A stretch of 56,284 bases of DNA from an uncultured Lachnospiraceae bacterium (GTDB lineage: Bacteria > Bacillota > Clostridia > Lachnospirales > Lachnospiraceae). Positions 4,872 to 55,906 of the stretch are shown here, in pieces. The stretch lies in contig CACZFF010000021.1 of the NCBI GenBank assembly GCA_902780385.1, positions 1-56,284 on the forward strand, in the 5' to 3' direction. The notes under the pieces were generated by a model that searched no databases, was not told the origin of the DNA, and was given only the letters and a program-made list of their open reading frames with translations. The translations under genes and the position numbers were made by a program. Position 1 is the stretch's first letter. Each line of letters opens with the position of its first letter.

Positions 4872-4882
4872 TATCCAATCAC

Positions 4883-5034
4883 GTTACAGTACACGCCCTC
4901 TCGAAGGGCGTGTACATGTAACGTTGCGAAAATCGCATTCCAATGCGCTGCGCGCGCGATTTTCGCCGTTCAACTCGGGTTTTGCGCAAAAGCGCGCAAA
5001 ACACCTCGCGTTTCAGGTGAGTCTCTACTGTAAC
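4883..5034 (+). mobile_element. 152-bp MITE-like element, copy 1
   Basis: Ends are GTTACAGTA and TACTGTAAC, exact inverted repeats. The 8-bp sequence CCAATCAC sits immediately outside both ends (4875-4882 and 5035-5042), the mark of transposition. Inside are four hairpins: GTACACGCCCT/AGGGCGTGTAC, GCGAAAATCGC/GCGATTTTCGC, GTTTTGCGC/GCGCAAAAC and CACCT/AGGTG. There is no transposase gene, so movement must have been driven in trans. A second copy is at 13531 and a truncated one near 25.0 kb. Confidence 0.88.
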
Positions 5035-5106
5035 CCAATCACCACAATCCTCCATCTGTCCGGATTGCAAATATTGAAAAAAACAATTTCCTATAGGATA
5101 ATAAGT

Positions 5107-12474: not shown

Positions 12475-13464
12475 TCATCTGGAGCGGACAATTGCTTTCA
12501 TGATCTCCCTGTAAGCCGCGAACAGGACACCTGCCACAGGCCATACGATCCAGGTGAACTCCCAGCGGGAAGTCGCAAAGCTCCAGCACAGATAAACTGC
12601 CGTCGCAATCGCCCAGTAGATGCCGTCATACTTTCCGGCCTTCTTATTCAGTCTGCTGTAGTCGCCTTCTTCCAGCAGTCTGTCATATCCGCCCTGCCTG
12701 ATCGAAGTAAGGACAATCAGCTTGACTCCGACAGCACACATGATCAGAAGCAGGGCAATGCCCAGTGCGGGAAGCAGATCACTGTTGTTGGAGTATTTGA
12801 CTGCCTCAATACCGAGCAGAGGCACTGCGGAGATAATGCACAGCATAACCCCGATGATCAGCCGTCTGCTGTGTGTCTCCGCATAGGTGTCCCGGCGCTC
12901 CTTCACCATTCCGTCCACACCGTACTCTGTTTCGATATCGATCTTTTCCAGATATTCGTATCTTTTCCCCCGCATCCCTTCTCTGATAAACAATCCTACA
13001 GCAACCGCTATGATGATCAGAAGAATTGCCGTTCCCGCGATTTCAGCAATCGCACTCTCCAGAGGAAGATATCCGATTTCCGCAAGCTGCACCAGGAGGA
13101 TCAGGATCACGGGAGACACAATGCACATCATGACACCGGTGGATACCGCGCGGGATTCCTTCTCATTATATTTCAGAAAGGAAGCCGCCTCCTCCATGGA
13201 GACGCTTCTGACTGTCTCTTCCAGCCCGTTGTCCACAGGAGCCTGTTCCGGGACCGGGGCTTCCTCAATCTCGTCCCTGATCAGATAATCTGTGCTTACA
13301 CCGAAGATCTCCGAGAGCTGCAGAATCTTCTTCATATCCGGTATTGCCTGGGCGCTCTCCCATTTGGACACGGACTGCCTGGAAACTCCCAGCTTCTCTG
13401 CCAGCTCCTCCTGGGACCAGTTGTTTTTCTTTCTGTTTTCTATAATCTTGTCTGCAAGGATCAT
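12475..13464 (-). CDS. Membrane-anchored XRE-family regulator
   Basis: This 329-residue protein joins an N-terminal helix-turn-helix (about residues 8-62, WSQEELAEKLGVSRQSVSKW) to a C-terminal half with some five or six membrane segments. It should sit in the membrane with the DNA-binding domain inside. This architecture is common in Firmicutes, where the ligand is usually unknown. The start is the ATG after GGAGG. A longer frame to the right runs into the mobile element and is spurious. It has its own terminator and no obvious partner gene. Confidence 0.9.
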   Translation of the reverse strand: MILADKIIENRKKNNWSQEELAEKLGVSRQSVSKWESAQAIPDMKKILQLSEIFGVSTDYLIRDEIEEAPVPEQAPVDNGLEETVRSVSMEEAASFLKYNEKESRAVSTGVMMCIVSPVILILLVQLAEIGYLPLESAIAEIAGTAILLIIIAVAVGLFIREGMRGKRYEYLEKIDIETEYGVDGMVKERRDTYAETHSRRLIIGVMLCIISAVPLLGIEAVKYSNNSDLLPALGIALLLIMCAVGVKLIVLTSIRQGGYDRLLEEGDYSRLNKKAGKYDGIYWAIATAVYLCWSFATSRWEFTWIVWPVAGVLFAAYREIMKAIVRSR

Positions 13465-13530
13465 CTCATTTCCTCCATGATTCGAGTATATTGGTTTTAT
13501 GTGTAATGCCTTCATCTGCTCAAAATATAC

Positions 13531-13685
13531 GTTACAGTACACGCCCCCTCGAAGGGCGTGTACATGTAACGCTGCGCGCGGCGATTCCAACATCGCTTTG
13601 CGTGCGCCGCGCGCCGTTACACTCGGGTTTTGCGCGAAATAGCCGCGCAAAACACCTCGAATTTCAGGTGGGCCTGTACTGAAAC
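13531..13685 (+). mobile_element. 155-bp MITE-like element, copy 2
   Basis: The ends are GTTACAGTA and TACTGAAAC (one mismatch). AAATATAC is directly repeated at both outer edges (13523-13530 and 13686-13693), an exact 8-bp target duplication different from that of copy 1. The same hairpin order is kept, although the second hairpin differs in sequence. It is inserted about 70 bases upstream of the XRE gene start. Confidence 0.88.
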
Positions 13686-13834
13686 AAATATACTCCTAAT
13701 AAGGATTGCAGACTACCAATCTGCCTTGTCAATTTGTCAACTTGCGGTTGCAACCGCCGGTTTCCATCTGTCTCCATTGCGCTTTTGCTATTTTCAGGGT
13801 TTGCTTATCGCTATCGGTATGTTCAGGTTAATGG

Positions 13835-14903: not shown

Positions 14904-14942
14904 GGTCTTCCTCCTTGGTTTCCTCCTTTTAATCTCGATCAC

Positions 14943-15026
14943 ATGAATCTCTTCATCGAATGAATCTCTTCATCGAATGGATCTCTTCATCGAATGGATC
15001 TCTTCATGAATGGATCTCTTCATCAA
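14943..15026 (-). repeat. Five 17-bp tandem repeats between etfB and etfA
   Basis: The unit ATGRATCTCTTCATCGA occurs five times (one copy is 16 bases). It is not a multiple of three and lies entirely between the two subunit genes. It could alter the translation ratio or mRNA stability of the two subunits, but this is speculation. Confidence 0.85.
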
Positions 15027-15054
15027 ATAAATCTCTCAGTCTGATTGATCTCAA

Positions 15055-32157: not shown

Positions 32158-32229
32158 AGGGACGGTCCTTTCGTTTCCGTCCCCCCTGTTTCATAAAAAC
32201 AGGGGGACAGAAACAAAAGGACCGTCCCT
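32158..32229. repeat. Long inverted repeat, GGGACGGTCC family
   Basis: Arms of about 33 bases (AGGGACGGTCCTTTCGTTTC and its complement near the right end) face each other with a 5-base gap. It follows the oxidoreductase stop by 10 bases and probably acts as terminator for both sides. Related sequences occur at 35871 and 37505, and a decayed relative at 35009. Confidence 0.85.
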
Positions 32230-33537
32230 ATACAAGCGGAAACATCAGCTCGACCCTGAATACCTTATCTTTACATTCAGATTGGCAGCTTCCGCCCATC
32301 TCCTTCATCATGCTTCGTATGCTCTGAATACCTATTCTGTTTCCTTCTACTGTTTCATCCGTCACTGCGATCCGGTTTTGGAACAGGAGCCCGATTTCAT
32401 CCTTTCTTTCCACCCTGTCTATTGTGATCGGATATTCCGGATCCGCATATTTCACAATGTTCGACATGATGTTATCCATAATGCGGACAAGATAATCTGT
32501 GTTGTATTGAATCTGTACATCCGACCATCGGACATGCATTTCTGTATGATAACCTCTTTGTTCAAGATAGCAGCTGGTTTCAGAAAGAAGATCATAAAAC
32601 ACTTCAGAGAAGGATTCTTCTTCCATATCTGTTTTTGTTTCTTTGCAGGTGCCGAGAGAATATTTCAAAAGACTGTCTGTCCTTTCTTTGAGCTGCAGTG
32701 CCTTTTGATTAATCTTTTGTATATATTGTGTTTTTTGATTGTCATCTTTGGTTTTTCCTGCCAGCAATATTCCGCATACAATATGATGGCTGTGACCGGC
32801 GTCCGAAGATCATGCGACATTTCCGTGATGACCTGCTGATGGTCACGGATCATCTCCGCTTCTCTTTTCTGACTGTCCAGGAAGGTCCTCCTCATGCTGT
32901 CAAGACCTTCTGCCAGCACGGATAGTTCATCGCATCCTCTTACGGTGATCGGACAGTTCAGACAGCCTCCCTCAAGCACTTCCACTTCATCACTGAGCTG
33001 ACGGATATAGCTCATTTTTCTTCGAATGCCCAGCAGCACAATCACCAGAAAGGCCAGAAAGCTCAATCCAATTTCAAACTTCTGAACACAGCTGTAGACC
33101 TGATAGCTCCATGCGCCGGAGATCATGATCTCTGCAATCCCGTCTTCAAATCTAATCGTATCGTACTTGATCCAATCATAATCTGCAGCAGCGATTTCCT
33201 GATCCCAAATATGCTGATACGGGTAGGCCGAATCAAACACCTGAATCCCGTCCTTGTAGATACTCAGAGAAAGCAGACGCTGTTCCTGCACCCATTTGTA
33301 TATATTTTCCGCATCCCGGGAATAGATCCTGTTTTCTGCAATGTACTCCTGAAATCCGGCGACAGCTTTCCTGATCCGGGTCTCAATGTAAACGCTCTCC
33401 TCCATATAGCGCTCGATCGGGTACTCGCTTATCTTGTCCAGCACAAAAAAGAATCCAACGGCGGCCACTGTAGCGACAATAAGGAGAATCATCATTTGTA
33501 CATATATGGAATGCCCTCTATGAATGTACCGTTTCAA
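32228..33537 (-). pseudogene. Frameshifted sensor histidine kinase
   Basis: The N-terminal part has two membrane helices, an external sensor of about 125 residues and the DHp helix with SHDLRTP (His242). The reading frame then ends in TIKKHNIYKR. In the next frame LAGKTKDDNQKTQYIQK continues the helix and the ATPase domain (N-box DNIMSNIVKYADP, then NRIGIQSIRSMM). Inserting one base in the stretch at 32765-32773 restores an unbroken protein. It begins with TTG inside the last codons of the response regulator, so the pair form one operon. Either the gene is dead, or the base was missed in assembly. Confidence 0.85.
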
Positions 33538-35870: not shown

Positions 35871-35930
35871 GACCGTCCCCATTGACATTTAAAACAGGGG
35901 GACGGAAACAAAAGGACCGTCCCCATTGAC
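35871..35930. repeat. GGGACGG-family repeat with direct repeats
   Basis: GACCGTCCCCATTGAC occurs at both ends (35871-35886 and 35915-35930) with the family core GGGGGACGGAAACAAAAGG between. It is adjacent to the operator region of the DUF134 gene. The rest of the gap up to 36119 shows no gene. Confidence 0.7.
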
Positions 35931-36119
35931 CGCGAAATATCTCCCATTCATTTGGATTGACCATATAAAACGCTCTGTCATATAATTATATACGTAATAT
36001 TCTTACTCCAAATGTGCTTTGAGGGACACCTGCACCATCCTGTGACTTTGTCATGCTGACACGATCATGTCAGACTTGCATCATGTGAAAGTTCACTTGA
36101 ACCGGACAGGGACCCTGAC

Positions 36120-37037: not shown

Positions 37038-37512
37038 CAGGATGCGGGTTTCCTTTGACCTGGACGAGGTATTGTTTGTCTCTCCTGATACTCACAGGAC
37101 GGAACCGGCACTCCGCTTTCCATTGAATTTAATTTATAAAGAACGCCTGCGCCTGGGGACGCCGGACCTGATCCGTACCCTTCAGAGCATGGGCTTCGAG
37201 GTGTGGATCTACACATCCTCTTTCCGTACCGAGGCCTATATAAAGCGCCTGTTCCGCTGCTATGGCGTCGTCTTCGACGGAATCGTCAATGGAACCCGGC
37301 ACCTGAAGGAAGTACAGCAGGGACATTCAGAAACGCTGCCCCAGAAGCTGCCCAGCAGGTACAGGATTTCCCTGCACATCGATGATGAGACCATCGTCTG
37401 CACATCGAGCCGTCAGTACGGATACAACGTGTATCAGCTTAATGCCCAGGATGATGACTGGAAGGAAAAAATCATCGCACGGGCGGTGCAGATCAGAAAT
37501 AGAACGAATTAG
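37021..37512 (+). CDS. HAD-like protein paired with ParB-HAD fusion
   Basis: A 163-residue HAD-like protein that resembles the C-terminal half of its neighbour: FDLDEV (Asp13, Asp15), VWIYTSSFR and LHIDDET. It starts at ATG behind GGAGG 10 bases upstream, while the preceding gene is still being read in another frame. The two proteins were probably formed by duplication and may act as a complex. A GGGACGG hairpin includes its stop codon. Confidence 0.8.
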   Translation: MNHTNNRMRVSFDLDEVLFVSPDTHRTEPALRFPLNLIYKERLRLGTPDLIRTLQSMGFEVWIYTSSFRTEAYIKRLFRCYGVVFDGIVNGTRHLKEVQQGHSETLPQKLPSRYRISLHIDDETIVCTSSRQYGYNVYQLNAQDDDWKEKIIARAVQIRNRTN

Positions 37513-37542
37513 GGACAGAAACAAAAGGACCGTCCCTAATTC
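37505..37542. repeat. GGGACGG-family hairpin including a stop codon
   Basis: GAATTAGGGAC (37505-37515, which contains the TAG stop of the HAD gene) is complementary to GTCCCTAATTC (37532-37542). The core AGAAACAAAAGG is shared with other members. It probably serves as terminator. Confidence 0.7.
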
Positions 37543-37607
37543 AGAACAGGCACTCTTTGATGAGGATTCTGATAACCTGTTCATAAGCTTTCCTTAATAG
37601 TTTTCCT

Positions 37608-40123: not shown

Positions 40124-41215
40124 TCATCCCGGCATGCGCAGACGCAGTCCTGCCAAAATCGTATCGGGTTTCATGCGCAGAACGCTGTACATCTCACCGG
40201 CCATGGAAAACCCGCAGTCATCACAGGCTCCCATGATGCTGCCCGGGCAGTTGGGAAGTATGCGGCCATCGATCAGAATATAGTTGGCGATCCAGCAGTC
40301 CTTAGGAAAGCCTCGTTTTTTCATGATCTTCAGGCCGGAGACAGAATTCATGATTGGATACCCCCGCTTTTTATAGGCAATGATTTTGTCTATGACACGG
40401 TTTCTTTCCTCCCAGTCCATCATCAGGTCTTCAGTTCCGGGAAAGGGGGTATGGAAGTTGAAAGCAATCTGGCGGATGGCGGGGTTTTCTTGCGCGTAGC
40501 GGATCAGCCTGCCCACTGAGTCCTTGTTGATCCTGTTTACTGCCATGGCAATGCTGACCTCCGGGTGCCCTGCTTCCCTGATATGCCGGTCAAGCCTGGC
40601 AAAAGTCCCCTTACCGCGAACGCGGTCGTGATATTTGCCGTAGCCGTCTACACTCACCCAGACGGTATCCGCGAGTGTGTCCGAAAAGGGGCGCTGGCCG
40701 TTTGTGGTCAGGGTACAGGACCAGAATCCCACCTCTTTAGCCAGCCTGTACAGGTCGTTGAGCGTTCTGCCTTCGCTGTCGCGCCAGAGGGTCGGCTCCC
40801 CGCCCTCAAAATCGATGAAACGGGATCCTCTCTGATAGGAATATTCCAGCTCTTTTCTGATCTCCTCATAAGGCTTCATTCTGGAGCCCTGATGGCCTTC
40901 TTCCATGCAGTGCCTGCACTTCAGATTACAGTAGTCCGTCACAAAGAGCACTGTCTGGAGCGGCCTCTTCTGATTCAGGATGCGGCTGCGAAAAAACCAC
41001 CGGGGCAGATAAGTCAATTTTCCCAAGGTCTTCCATACATCTGCAGGCTGAAATGCTTCCTTTTTTCTGAAAGCTCCGACAGGCTGTATTGCATCCTCTC
41101 TTCTGAAAGCTCCTGAAGACTGTATTGCATCCTCTCTTCTAAAAGCATCTACAGGTTGATCTGCTTTCTCATTCTTGAAAACGCCTGCATTTTCCATTGC
41201 ATCCTCTTTTCTCAT
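40124..41215 (-). CDS. Radical SAM protein with N-terminal 12-residue repeats
   Basis: The catalytic core has the cluster motif C96NLKCRHC103 and a GGEPTL motif, as in radical SAM enzymes, and about 360 residues in total. A C-terminal NCPGS...ACDDC cysteine group may bind a second cluster. The first 60 residues contain three near-identical 12-residue units (AFRREDAIQSSG-type) that are unusual for this family. The start is supported by GGAGG five bases before ATG, so the repeats should be translated. It lies next to prenyl synthesis genes and may modify a quinone or peptide; the reaction is unknown. A stem-loop separates it from them. Confidence 0.82.
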   Translation of the reverse strand: MRKEDAMENAGVFKNEKADQPVDAFRREDAIQSSGAFRREDAIQPVGAFRKKEAFQPADVWKTLGKLTYLPRWFFRSRILNQKRPLQTVLFVTDYCNLKCRHCMEEGHQGSRMKPYEEIRKELEYSYQRGSRFIDFEGGEPTLWRDSEGRTLNDLYRLAKEVGFWSCTLTTNGQRPFSDTLADTVWVSVDGYGKYHDRVRGKGTFARLDRHIREAGHPEVSIAMAVNRINKDSVGRLIRYAQENPAIRQIAFNFHTPFPGTEDLMMDWEERNRVIDKIIAYKKRGYPIMNSVSGLKIMKKRGFPKDCWIANYILIDGRILPNCPGSIMGACDDCGFSMAGEMYSVLRMKPDTILAGLRLRMPG

Positions 41216-54857: not shown

Positions 54858-54929
54858 CGGGGGAATCCCTCATCTAAAATAGGGTTTTTCCCTGTGTTGC
54901 TGTTCACTCCCTGTCGAGGGCGTGAACAG
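54858..54929. promoter_or_regulatory. GGGGAATCCC site and two hairpins before reductase
   Basis: GGGGAATCCCTC is followed by AGGGTTTTTCCCT, then CTGTTCAC/GTGAACAG with inner CCCT/AGGG stem, similar in shape to hairpin 1 of the mobile element. They lie 150-220 bases upstream of the reductase and 12 bases beyond the metallo-beta-lactamase-like gene. Operator for the NarL-type regulator and terminator of the upstream gene are both possible. Confidence 0.45.
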
Positions 54930-54940
54930 TAGTTTCCCTG

Positions 54941-55906
54941 TCATTCATCCTTCTCCTGCAGATTCCAGTCCGTCAGCCGCCTGCTGCCGCGCTCATAGAC
55001 AAATCCGTCAGAAGTCTCAGTCTGTCGAATATATCTGCGGTAAAGCAAATACTTCAGGCCGCTTTCCGTGTCTGCAATGCCTGCAGACTCATCCTCCTGA
55101 AACATTTCTTCAGATCGGATGCCTCCCCGGGCGGGAACCTTCTGGTAGACCTCAAGGATCCGCAGACAGTATCCCCCCAGCATGGCATCCAGTACTTTCA
55201 GGCATTCTTCCGCGCCCTTTTCTCCCTGCTGATCTACACCGATGCAGCGGCCTCTTGCCGGCAGAATCATCTGAGGACACAGTCTTTTGACCCGTCGGAG
55301 AACCTCGATCTGCAACCCTAATGTATCCACCTGCGGATCCCAGCTGTACACTCCCGGCACTTCATCAGCACCTACCGCTTCGCCGGCAAAAAGTAATTTC
55401 TTTTCCGGAAACCAGAGTCCGGTAAGCCCCTTCCTGCATGCCTCCAGTCCTATGATCCGGAGTGTCCTGCTGCCGATCCGGAATAAATCTCCGTCCCTCA
55501 CCTGTTTCCATGGAAAAGCCTCTTTATCATACGCATCCTCTTCCGCTTCCGGCCTGCCCTGCATTTTCCTGTCCGGTTCGTCTGCCTCCTCGGAAATTGT
55601 CCTGTAGGGCCGGTCACAGCAATAGATCTTCATCTCCTTAAATGCAGGCCCGCTGTCCGTACAGAGTTCCTTTCTGCAGGGCTGTGTCAGGTAGATCCGG
55701 ATCCTTCCGCTGTCCATTTCCCTTATATGTGCCAGACGGCAGATACTCCCAATCATGTCCACTGAAGAGGGATCGATGACGACAACATCCTCCCCGGAAA
55801 AAAATACATAGCTGTTAGAAGAACTGCCTGCCTCACAGACCCTGTATATATCCGGATCTCTCATAATCTCTTCCCAGATCAGGCGTTTTCTGCTGTTGTT
55901 TGTCAA
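54941..55906 (-). CDS. Degenerate metallo-beta-lactamase-fold protein
   Basis: A protein of about 320 residues. An N-terminal strand pattern (IYRVCEAGSSSNSYVFF, VVVIDPS) and LLFAGEAVG resemble the metallo-beta-lactamase fold, but the HxHxDH metal motif is replaced by YLTQPCRKEL, so hydrolysis is unlikely. It may have a binding or sensing role. The start is TTG behind AGAGG, or ATG at 55864. It lies upstream of the reductase operon in the same direction. Family placement is tentative. Confidence 0.7.
   Translation of the reverse strand: MTNNSRKRLIWEEIMRDPDIYRVCEAGSSSNSYVFFSGEDVVVIDPSSVDMIGSICRLAHIREMDSGRIRIYLTQPCRKELCTDSGPAFKEMKIYCCDRPYRTISEEADEPDRKMQGRPEAEEDAYDKEAFPWKQVRDGDLFRIGSRTLRIIGLEACRKGLTGLWFPEKKLLFAGEAVGADEVPGVYSWDPQVDTLGLQIEVLRRVKRLCPQMILPARGRCIGVDQQGEKGAEECLKVLDAMLGGYCLRILEVYQKVPARGGIRSEEMFQEDESAGIADTESGLKYLLYRRYIRQTETSDGFVYERGSRRLTDWNLQEKDE

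Follow-up and report, generated by a model that had tools for sequence, protein, structure and literature searches.

The short, hairpin-rich repeat found in several copies in the window, by which we mean the whole 56,284-nt stretch of Lachnospiraceae DNA analysed, is a real MITE. It is non-autonomous, and very probably a divergent IS66-family transposase mobilises it in trans. It belongs to a known general kind of mobile element and has an unusually well conserved folded body. According to the mechanism we propose, the transposase would bind GTTAC(A/T)GTNCA-type termini and would insert them with 8-bp staggered cuts. The body, made up of hairpins H1, H2 and H3 and a CTCGGG-stem-ACACCTCGCG core, is an ancient module, related forms of which occur in several genera of the family. 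With less certainty, we suggest that template switching between arms may keep the hairpins as DNA, and that folded single-stranded DNA possibly aids mobility or replication.

Two complete copies lie in the window. Copy 1 (152 bp) occupies positions 4883..5034 on the plus strand, with the left hairpin first and the CTCGGG core on that strand; it scores 157.4 bits with model R1 and is flanked by exact 8-bp target duplications, CCAATCAC (4875..4882 and 5035..5042). Copy 2 (155 bp; 13531..13685, plus strand; 169.7 bits) is enclosed by exact duplications of AAATATAC (13523..13530 and 13686..13693) and differs from copy 1 by 30 edits over 152/155 bases. The first-pass annotation had described a MITE-like element with exact 8-bp duplications at these places, and both the coordinates and the duplications are exact. 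It gave the two copies the same inverted ends, but copy 2 terminates in TACTGAAAC, one base off the TACTGTAAC described. It had also seen no transposase inside the element, and inspection of the alignments, which is not a formal test, likewise revealed nothing coding. It had missed a mini-element, described below, and copy 3 (24992..about 25111, plus strand; 69.4 bits), which is 3′-truncated, carries an extra insert in H2 and breaks off in H3; the R1 match extends to 25157, its 3′ portion being chance-like. A gene for an HTH_3 regulator, read from the minus strand, has copy 2 just upstream of it. With a TTG start, its longest ORF (window 12475-13650, minus strand) extends into copy 2, and the stretch within the element is probably non-coding because the HTH domain starts at residue 71.

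The centroid fold of copy 1 (–67.3 kcal/mol) consists of four plus-strand hairpins: H1 (4883..4922), in which the left terminal inverted repeat forms the outer arm; H2 (4926..4966); H3 (4979..5002), located within the conserved CTCGGG...ACACCTCG core; and H4 (5005..5021), a weak hairpin that overlaps the base of H3 on the 3′ side and was left out of the covariation tests. The minimum free energy of copy 1 is –68.5 (z –6.3), and none of 200 shuffled sequences folded as well. Copy 2 is similarly structured (z –5.8, 0 of 200 shuffles as good). Yet both its MFE and centroid folds pair the two termini together in place of the left hairpin. H1 contains a bulge, and a gapless test of its inner arm is therefore non-discriminating.

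When the own genome (3.30 Mb, 96 contigs) was searched with copy 1, at least 73 matches and at least 40 places at E<1e-20 were obtained. These figures are minima, since scoring covered 40 of the 116 candidates; the list does not include the window's copy 3. Partial copies were added by right-end and TIR pattern searches. As is typical of MITEs, the element is thus short (~150 bp), dispersed over at least 40 places and gene-less, its non-coding nature being judged from the alignments. We observed that ends of three contigs (C71, C7 and C27; loci L018, L019 and L028) fall inside element copies. Assembly therefore breaks at these repeats, which makes the copy counts lower bounds and illustrates how such elements limit short-read assemblies.

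Target duplications were counted among the best 150 of 164 model matches over 95 sources, a subset of the known copies. Once overlapping matches and repeats of one place had been removed, there remained 103 copies for which both flanks were available, besides 1 lying at an edge. Of the 103, 57 had exact 8-bp duplications (24/44 in the own, 16/31 in the near and 17/28 in the distant group), and 15 further copies (6, 5 and 4, respectively) had a 7/8 duplication. A control comparison of the left flank of one copy with the right flank of another yielded 1 exact match in 10,506. A prior count, 40 exact duplications in 55 copies, was biased, since the best right end had been chosen. The element therefore combines terminal inverted repeats with duplications of fixed length, another hallmark of MITEs, and the further copies with 8-bp duplications that the first-pass annotation proposed to look for do exist. 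Own and near copies with exact duplications number 40; in 30 of them the duplication ends in C, and in 32 it is followed by C or T. G is found at position 1 in 5, with no G preference mirroring the C at position 8. Insertion thus seems to be oriented. At position 8 of the distant copies, T is found in 11 of 17.

The first-pass annotation had interpreted the pattern as recent transposition, and two observations bear this out. Near-identical copies (1–5 edits over about 150–170 bases) reside at different sites with different exact duplications. In addition, the genes next to copy 1, for formate-THF ligase and cyclodeaminase, are also neighbours in three congeneric genomes, where no complete element separates them (3 of 9 stretches were aligned). 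The immediate flanks have diverged at this locus, and the absence refers to a syntenic place rather than to a base-exact empty site; in one genome (G449), this intergenic region contains a remnant of the left hairpin nearer the downstream gene, which counts against it. Several other leads were dropped. The 5′-truncated copies, considered as a sign of reverse transcription, lack exact duplications where inspected by eye, and complete copies have them. A long duplication in locus L129 is accounted for by two tandem copies, a 3′-truncated copy (L109) with a duplication-like flanking repeat is read as a deletion, and no right end matching a supposed full-length element was seen in L105.

A TIR pattern search of the own genome allowing one mismatch revealed two inverted ends 2.6 kb apart. 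They delimit a transposon of 2,628 bp (G000:C5:88376-91003; L132:877-3504) flanked by an exact 8-bp duplication, CAAAAATT. This transposon carries an open 568-aa ORF matching PF03050 (1.3e-10; 41.6 bits, cut-off 23.1) and DUF6444, as well as a 124-aa ORF with no family match. The 568-aa transposase scores 110.5 bits against NF033517, below the equivalog cut-off of 180, and is accordingly named divergent, or IS66-type, rather than a plain family member. As expected for a transposase with a DDE_Tnp_IS66 domain, residues D336, D387 and E512 are invariant in eight aligned proteins (own and seven relatives); they presumably form the DDE triad.

The right 24–26 bp of the transposon match the element ends best: 38 of 55 elements gave a same-strand BLAST match there, with 25 of 26 bases in the best case (L042). 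Neither window copy gave a BLAST row; direct comparison shows 20 of 25 bases in common for each of them (in copy 1, 5010..5034, plus strand), and no other 25-mer of the window plus strand reaches 18 of 25. On the left, 14 of 16 bp are identical between the window copies and the transposon. The interiors are unrelated, with no match below E 1.0 between the transposon interior and the 55 elements. Similar ends and an 8-bp duplication are what one expects of a MITE and an autonomous transposon that moves it. Thus, judging from sequence, the mobiliser is most likely this divergent IS66-type transposon, and for the own genome the assignment is well supported. The first-pass annotation had suggested looking for a full-length transposon with the same ends; the one found has similar ends and encodes a divergent IS66-family transposase, and an orphan-looking repeat thereby gains a likely mobiliser. 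In the titles and abstract openings of the literature that came up, we met no IS66-linked MITE of Lachnospiraceae, from which we claim no absence from print.

Termini of the GTTACTGTTCAC or GTAACTGTTCAG type (GTTAC or GTAAC ends) recur in 23 loci around related transposases, and, besides the own transposon, exact 8-bp duplications flank related transposons of other genera in L189, L192 and L198 (L208 is the same place as the last). The own genome has a second IS66-type gene, which extends to a contig end and has GTTACTATTCAC termini. A lower-scoring element copy (L132:692-863, 86.6 bits) was also noticed 13 bp from the IS66-type transposon.

Might another transposase move the element, the IS66-type transposon merely having termini in common with it? 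The distribution of the two over genomes speaks for this: in a family sample of 397 genomes, element relatives were detected in 16 (E<=1e-4) and the partner transposase in 19 (E<=1e-20), and the own genome is the sole overlap between the lists. The partner is, moreover, a single-copy transposon in the own genome, where the element has dozens of copies. Against it stand the equal length of the duplications, the right-end similarity of up to 25/26 and the occurrence of IS-group terminus variants GTTACTGTTCAC, GTAACTGTTCAG and GTTACCATTCACAGC at the ends of distant element copies as well. The two transposase families searched for were PF00872 and PF03050; IS256 (PF00872) was discarded as a candidate, having no match in the own genome, with the control positive in 6 of 14 named genomes. 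Taken together, these data make a different mobiliser highly improbable. When 14 of the 16 element-positive genomes were searched for PF03050, IS66 turned up in 6, and the canonical IS66 loci of those 6 genomes contained no pair of such ends within <=1.5 kb on each side. Outside the own genus, then, either the mobiliser has been lost, or it has diverged further, or a different one is at work.

Relatives of the element allowed us to look at its body across genera. An H1 pattern scan of a public genome collection returned 30 stretches, from Lachnospiraceae MAGs, one Eubacteriales MAG and Sarcina sp. DSM 11001 (Clostridiaceae by NCBI placement); the same pattern gave 0 matches in IMG/VR. The CTCGGG-stem-ACACCTCGCG core is common to most distant copies and was recovered by a regular expression over whole loci in 13 of 16 genomes, a set composed of the 15 element-positive genomes other than the own plus G027. 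The misses were one genome with copies of the near type (G010), one with other linkers (G214) and one with a close variant (G300). Model R2, built from distant genera only, detects copies 1 and 2 of the window (rough E-values of 9.1e-7 and 4.5e-4 over 139,902 bases) but not copy 3; it is mainly a sequence model, as its RNAalifold structure is poor (20 pairs, with the termini paired). When R2 was applied to a sample of 391 genomes of the class, 2 were matched, namely the own genome and a single other member of its family, which suggests absence outside the family under strict filters and with a model weak on structure.

We analysed pairing in two alignments. In A1 (30 copies), 95.0% of cells at 44 pairs are paired, compared to 32–57% in slid controls, and 18 of the 44 pairs have changed on both sides (shuffle mean 9.6). 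In A2, which comprises 31 distant rows fitted to the R1 structure, two of them weak and on the opposite strand (L147 and L165), 91.2% are paired and 37 of 44 pairs have changed on both sides (shuffle mean 23.1). Column 9/31 of H1 displays three compensated pair types. The core linkers are nearly invariant although the neighbouring stems have changed greatly. The folded body is thus conserved across several genera of one family, and a hairpin-rich MITE body can retain both architecture and linkers across genera despite changing stems. In G214, L147 and L165 (1501-1646) have similar termini, several hairpins and exact 8-bp duplications, with different linkers and no CTCGGG core.

Covariation of this strength, the kept linkers and the low folding energies of copies 1 and 2 could be taken to mean that the body is a structured RNA, in which case folded read-through transcripts would act on adjoining host genes (through stability, termination or processing), and RNA selection would maintain hairpins and linkers. 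In RNA, G.U is normally the commonest non-Watson-Crick pair, and selection on a sense-strand RNA should favour G.T over A.C mismatches. We counted mismatches in 98 rows, after dropping 42 overlapping, 5 duplicate and 5 short ones. There were 64 G.T and 89 A.C over H1–H3, that is, no overall G.U excess. By hairpin, the G.T/A.C counts were 9/26 in H1, 33/21 in H2 and 22/42 in H3, with 23, 23 and 88 other mismatches, respectively; by group of copies, they were 20/43 (own), 17/23 (near) and 27/23 (distant). The covariation expected of a structured RNA is therefore present, whereas the accompanying one-strand tolerance of G.U is seen in H2, and slightly in the distant copies, but not overall. Both neighbouring genes were called for 87 of 99 copies: they both run in the direction of the element in 23 cases and both opposite to it in 31, and are divergent in 21 and convergent in 12, while 14 copies overlap an ORF of >=150 aa. 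As far as crude ORF calls can tell, 23 against 31 is no gene-strand bias. Rfam likewise provided no curated-family match: no family reached its gathering score in the window, and none matched the element at E<=1 in ten distant loci. The first-pass annotation had proposed that the RNA of the element could have effects; the strand tests, covering mismatch types and gene orientation, lend this no support, and we regard an RNA function of the body as rather unlikely.

Alternatively, the covariation may be purely mutational, with replication template switching evening out the arms of a functionless body and linker conservation reflecting common descent. According to PMC8604942, template switching homogenises hairpin arms and inverts spacers. 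Some loops are indeed inverted here: in the small extra hairpin of H2, 7 copies have TTC as the loop, 4 have GAA (with L122 among these a full reverse complement) and 1 has TAA. Yet of 62 H1 loops that could be read, 1 is inverted (14 more are unreadable), despite the three compensated types in column 9/31 of H1, and template switching leaves unaccounted for the linkers conserved in 13 of 16 genomes. That mutation alone explains the body is possible, though not the view to which we incline. At the other extreme, the folded body could be a functional DNA module: the left terminus would need the H1 hairpin, and hairpin H3 with its CTCGGG/ACACCTCGCG linkers would be what the transposase or a replication protein recognises in folded single-stranded DNA, with high mobility and oriented insertion as the outcome. 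If true, this would be a DDE element depending on folded DNA, with a module that several genera of one bacterial family have conserved; we consider it unlikely and offer it as speculation. What we prefer is that hairpin folding is probably kept at the DNA level, because there is no overall G.U excess, no strand bias and there are some inverted loops. The element would then show that covariation, even when strong, does not always point to RNA, and the mismatch test together with loop inversions could help to separate DNA-maintained hairpins from RNA in searches for structured RNAs.

The combination of features can be compared with known systems. IS66 elements begin with GTAA and make 8-bp duplications. 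The 8-bp duplications found here, the PF03050 match of the partner transposase and its invariant D, D and E agree with the IS66 family (NF033517/PF03050); the differences are that the partner is divergent, as its NF033517 score indicates, that its ends are GTTAC or GTAAC, and that nothing coding was found in the element itself. IS200/IS605 and REP/RAYT systems have terminal hairpins and HUH transposases and are not known to make a target duplication. Hairpins at the ends are common to them and the element, which differs in having 8-bp duplications and in that the DDE domain of its partner is of the IS66 type. The bcr1 repeat makes a 5-bp duplication, and its sequence is not known to resemble that of the element. 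Listed at 147 and 167 bp in the family table of PMC2267715, bcr1 belongs to the Bacillus cereus group and is, like our element, a dispersed, mobile and foldable repeat of similar size. The element here has, in contrast, another host group, a candidate partner IS and an 8-bp duplication. MITEPsy1, as described in PMC3189936, is thought to be derived from ISPsy2 and has 4-nt duplications; well-conserved copies are reported there only in P. syringae genomospecies 2, and the authors suggest that similar sequences may be widespread. Like it and other IS-partnered bacterial MITEs, the element is gene-less, has IS-like termini and is presumably mobilised in trans (PMC3189936); unlike MITEPsy1, it has a folded body common to several genera and an 8-bp duplication.

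In addition to the element copies, the window contains a 38-bp mini-element (54896..54933, plus strand), in which two inverted ends form one hairpin without a body, flanked by exact 8-bp duplications of TTCCCTGT (54888..54895 and 54934..54941). Of 402 end pairs spaced 30–60 bp apart, three have exact duplications: this one, another of 38 bp (L097) and one of 41 bp from another genus (L171). In each of these the left end is joined to a right end with no body between; the mini-elements may have transposed in this form or may have lost a body later.

A few other repeats were noticed. In L126 (2021-2216), a second element of 196 bp, unrelated to the main one but with termini of its kind (GTTACAGTTCAGGCCC) and an exact duplication, ATTTTCGG, abuts the end of a main-element copy and was apparently inserted there. 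Tandem repeats are found in the window at 14933-15050 (spacing mostly 17 bp) and 41044-41187 (36 bp). Another dispersed repeat, with GGGAC...GTCCC arms, has three copies in the window (32196-32246, 35891-35941 and 37504-37554).
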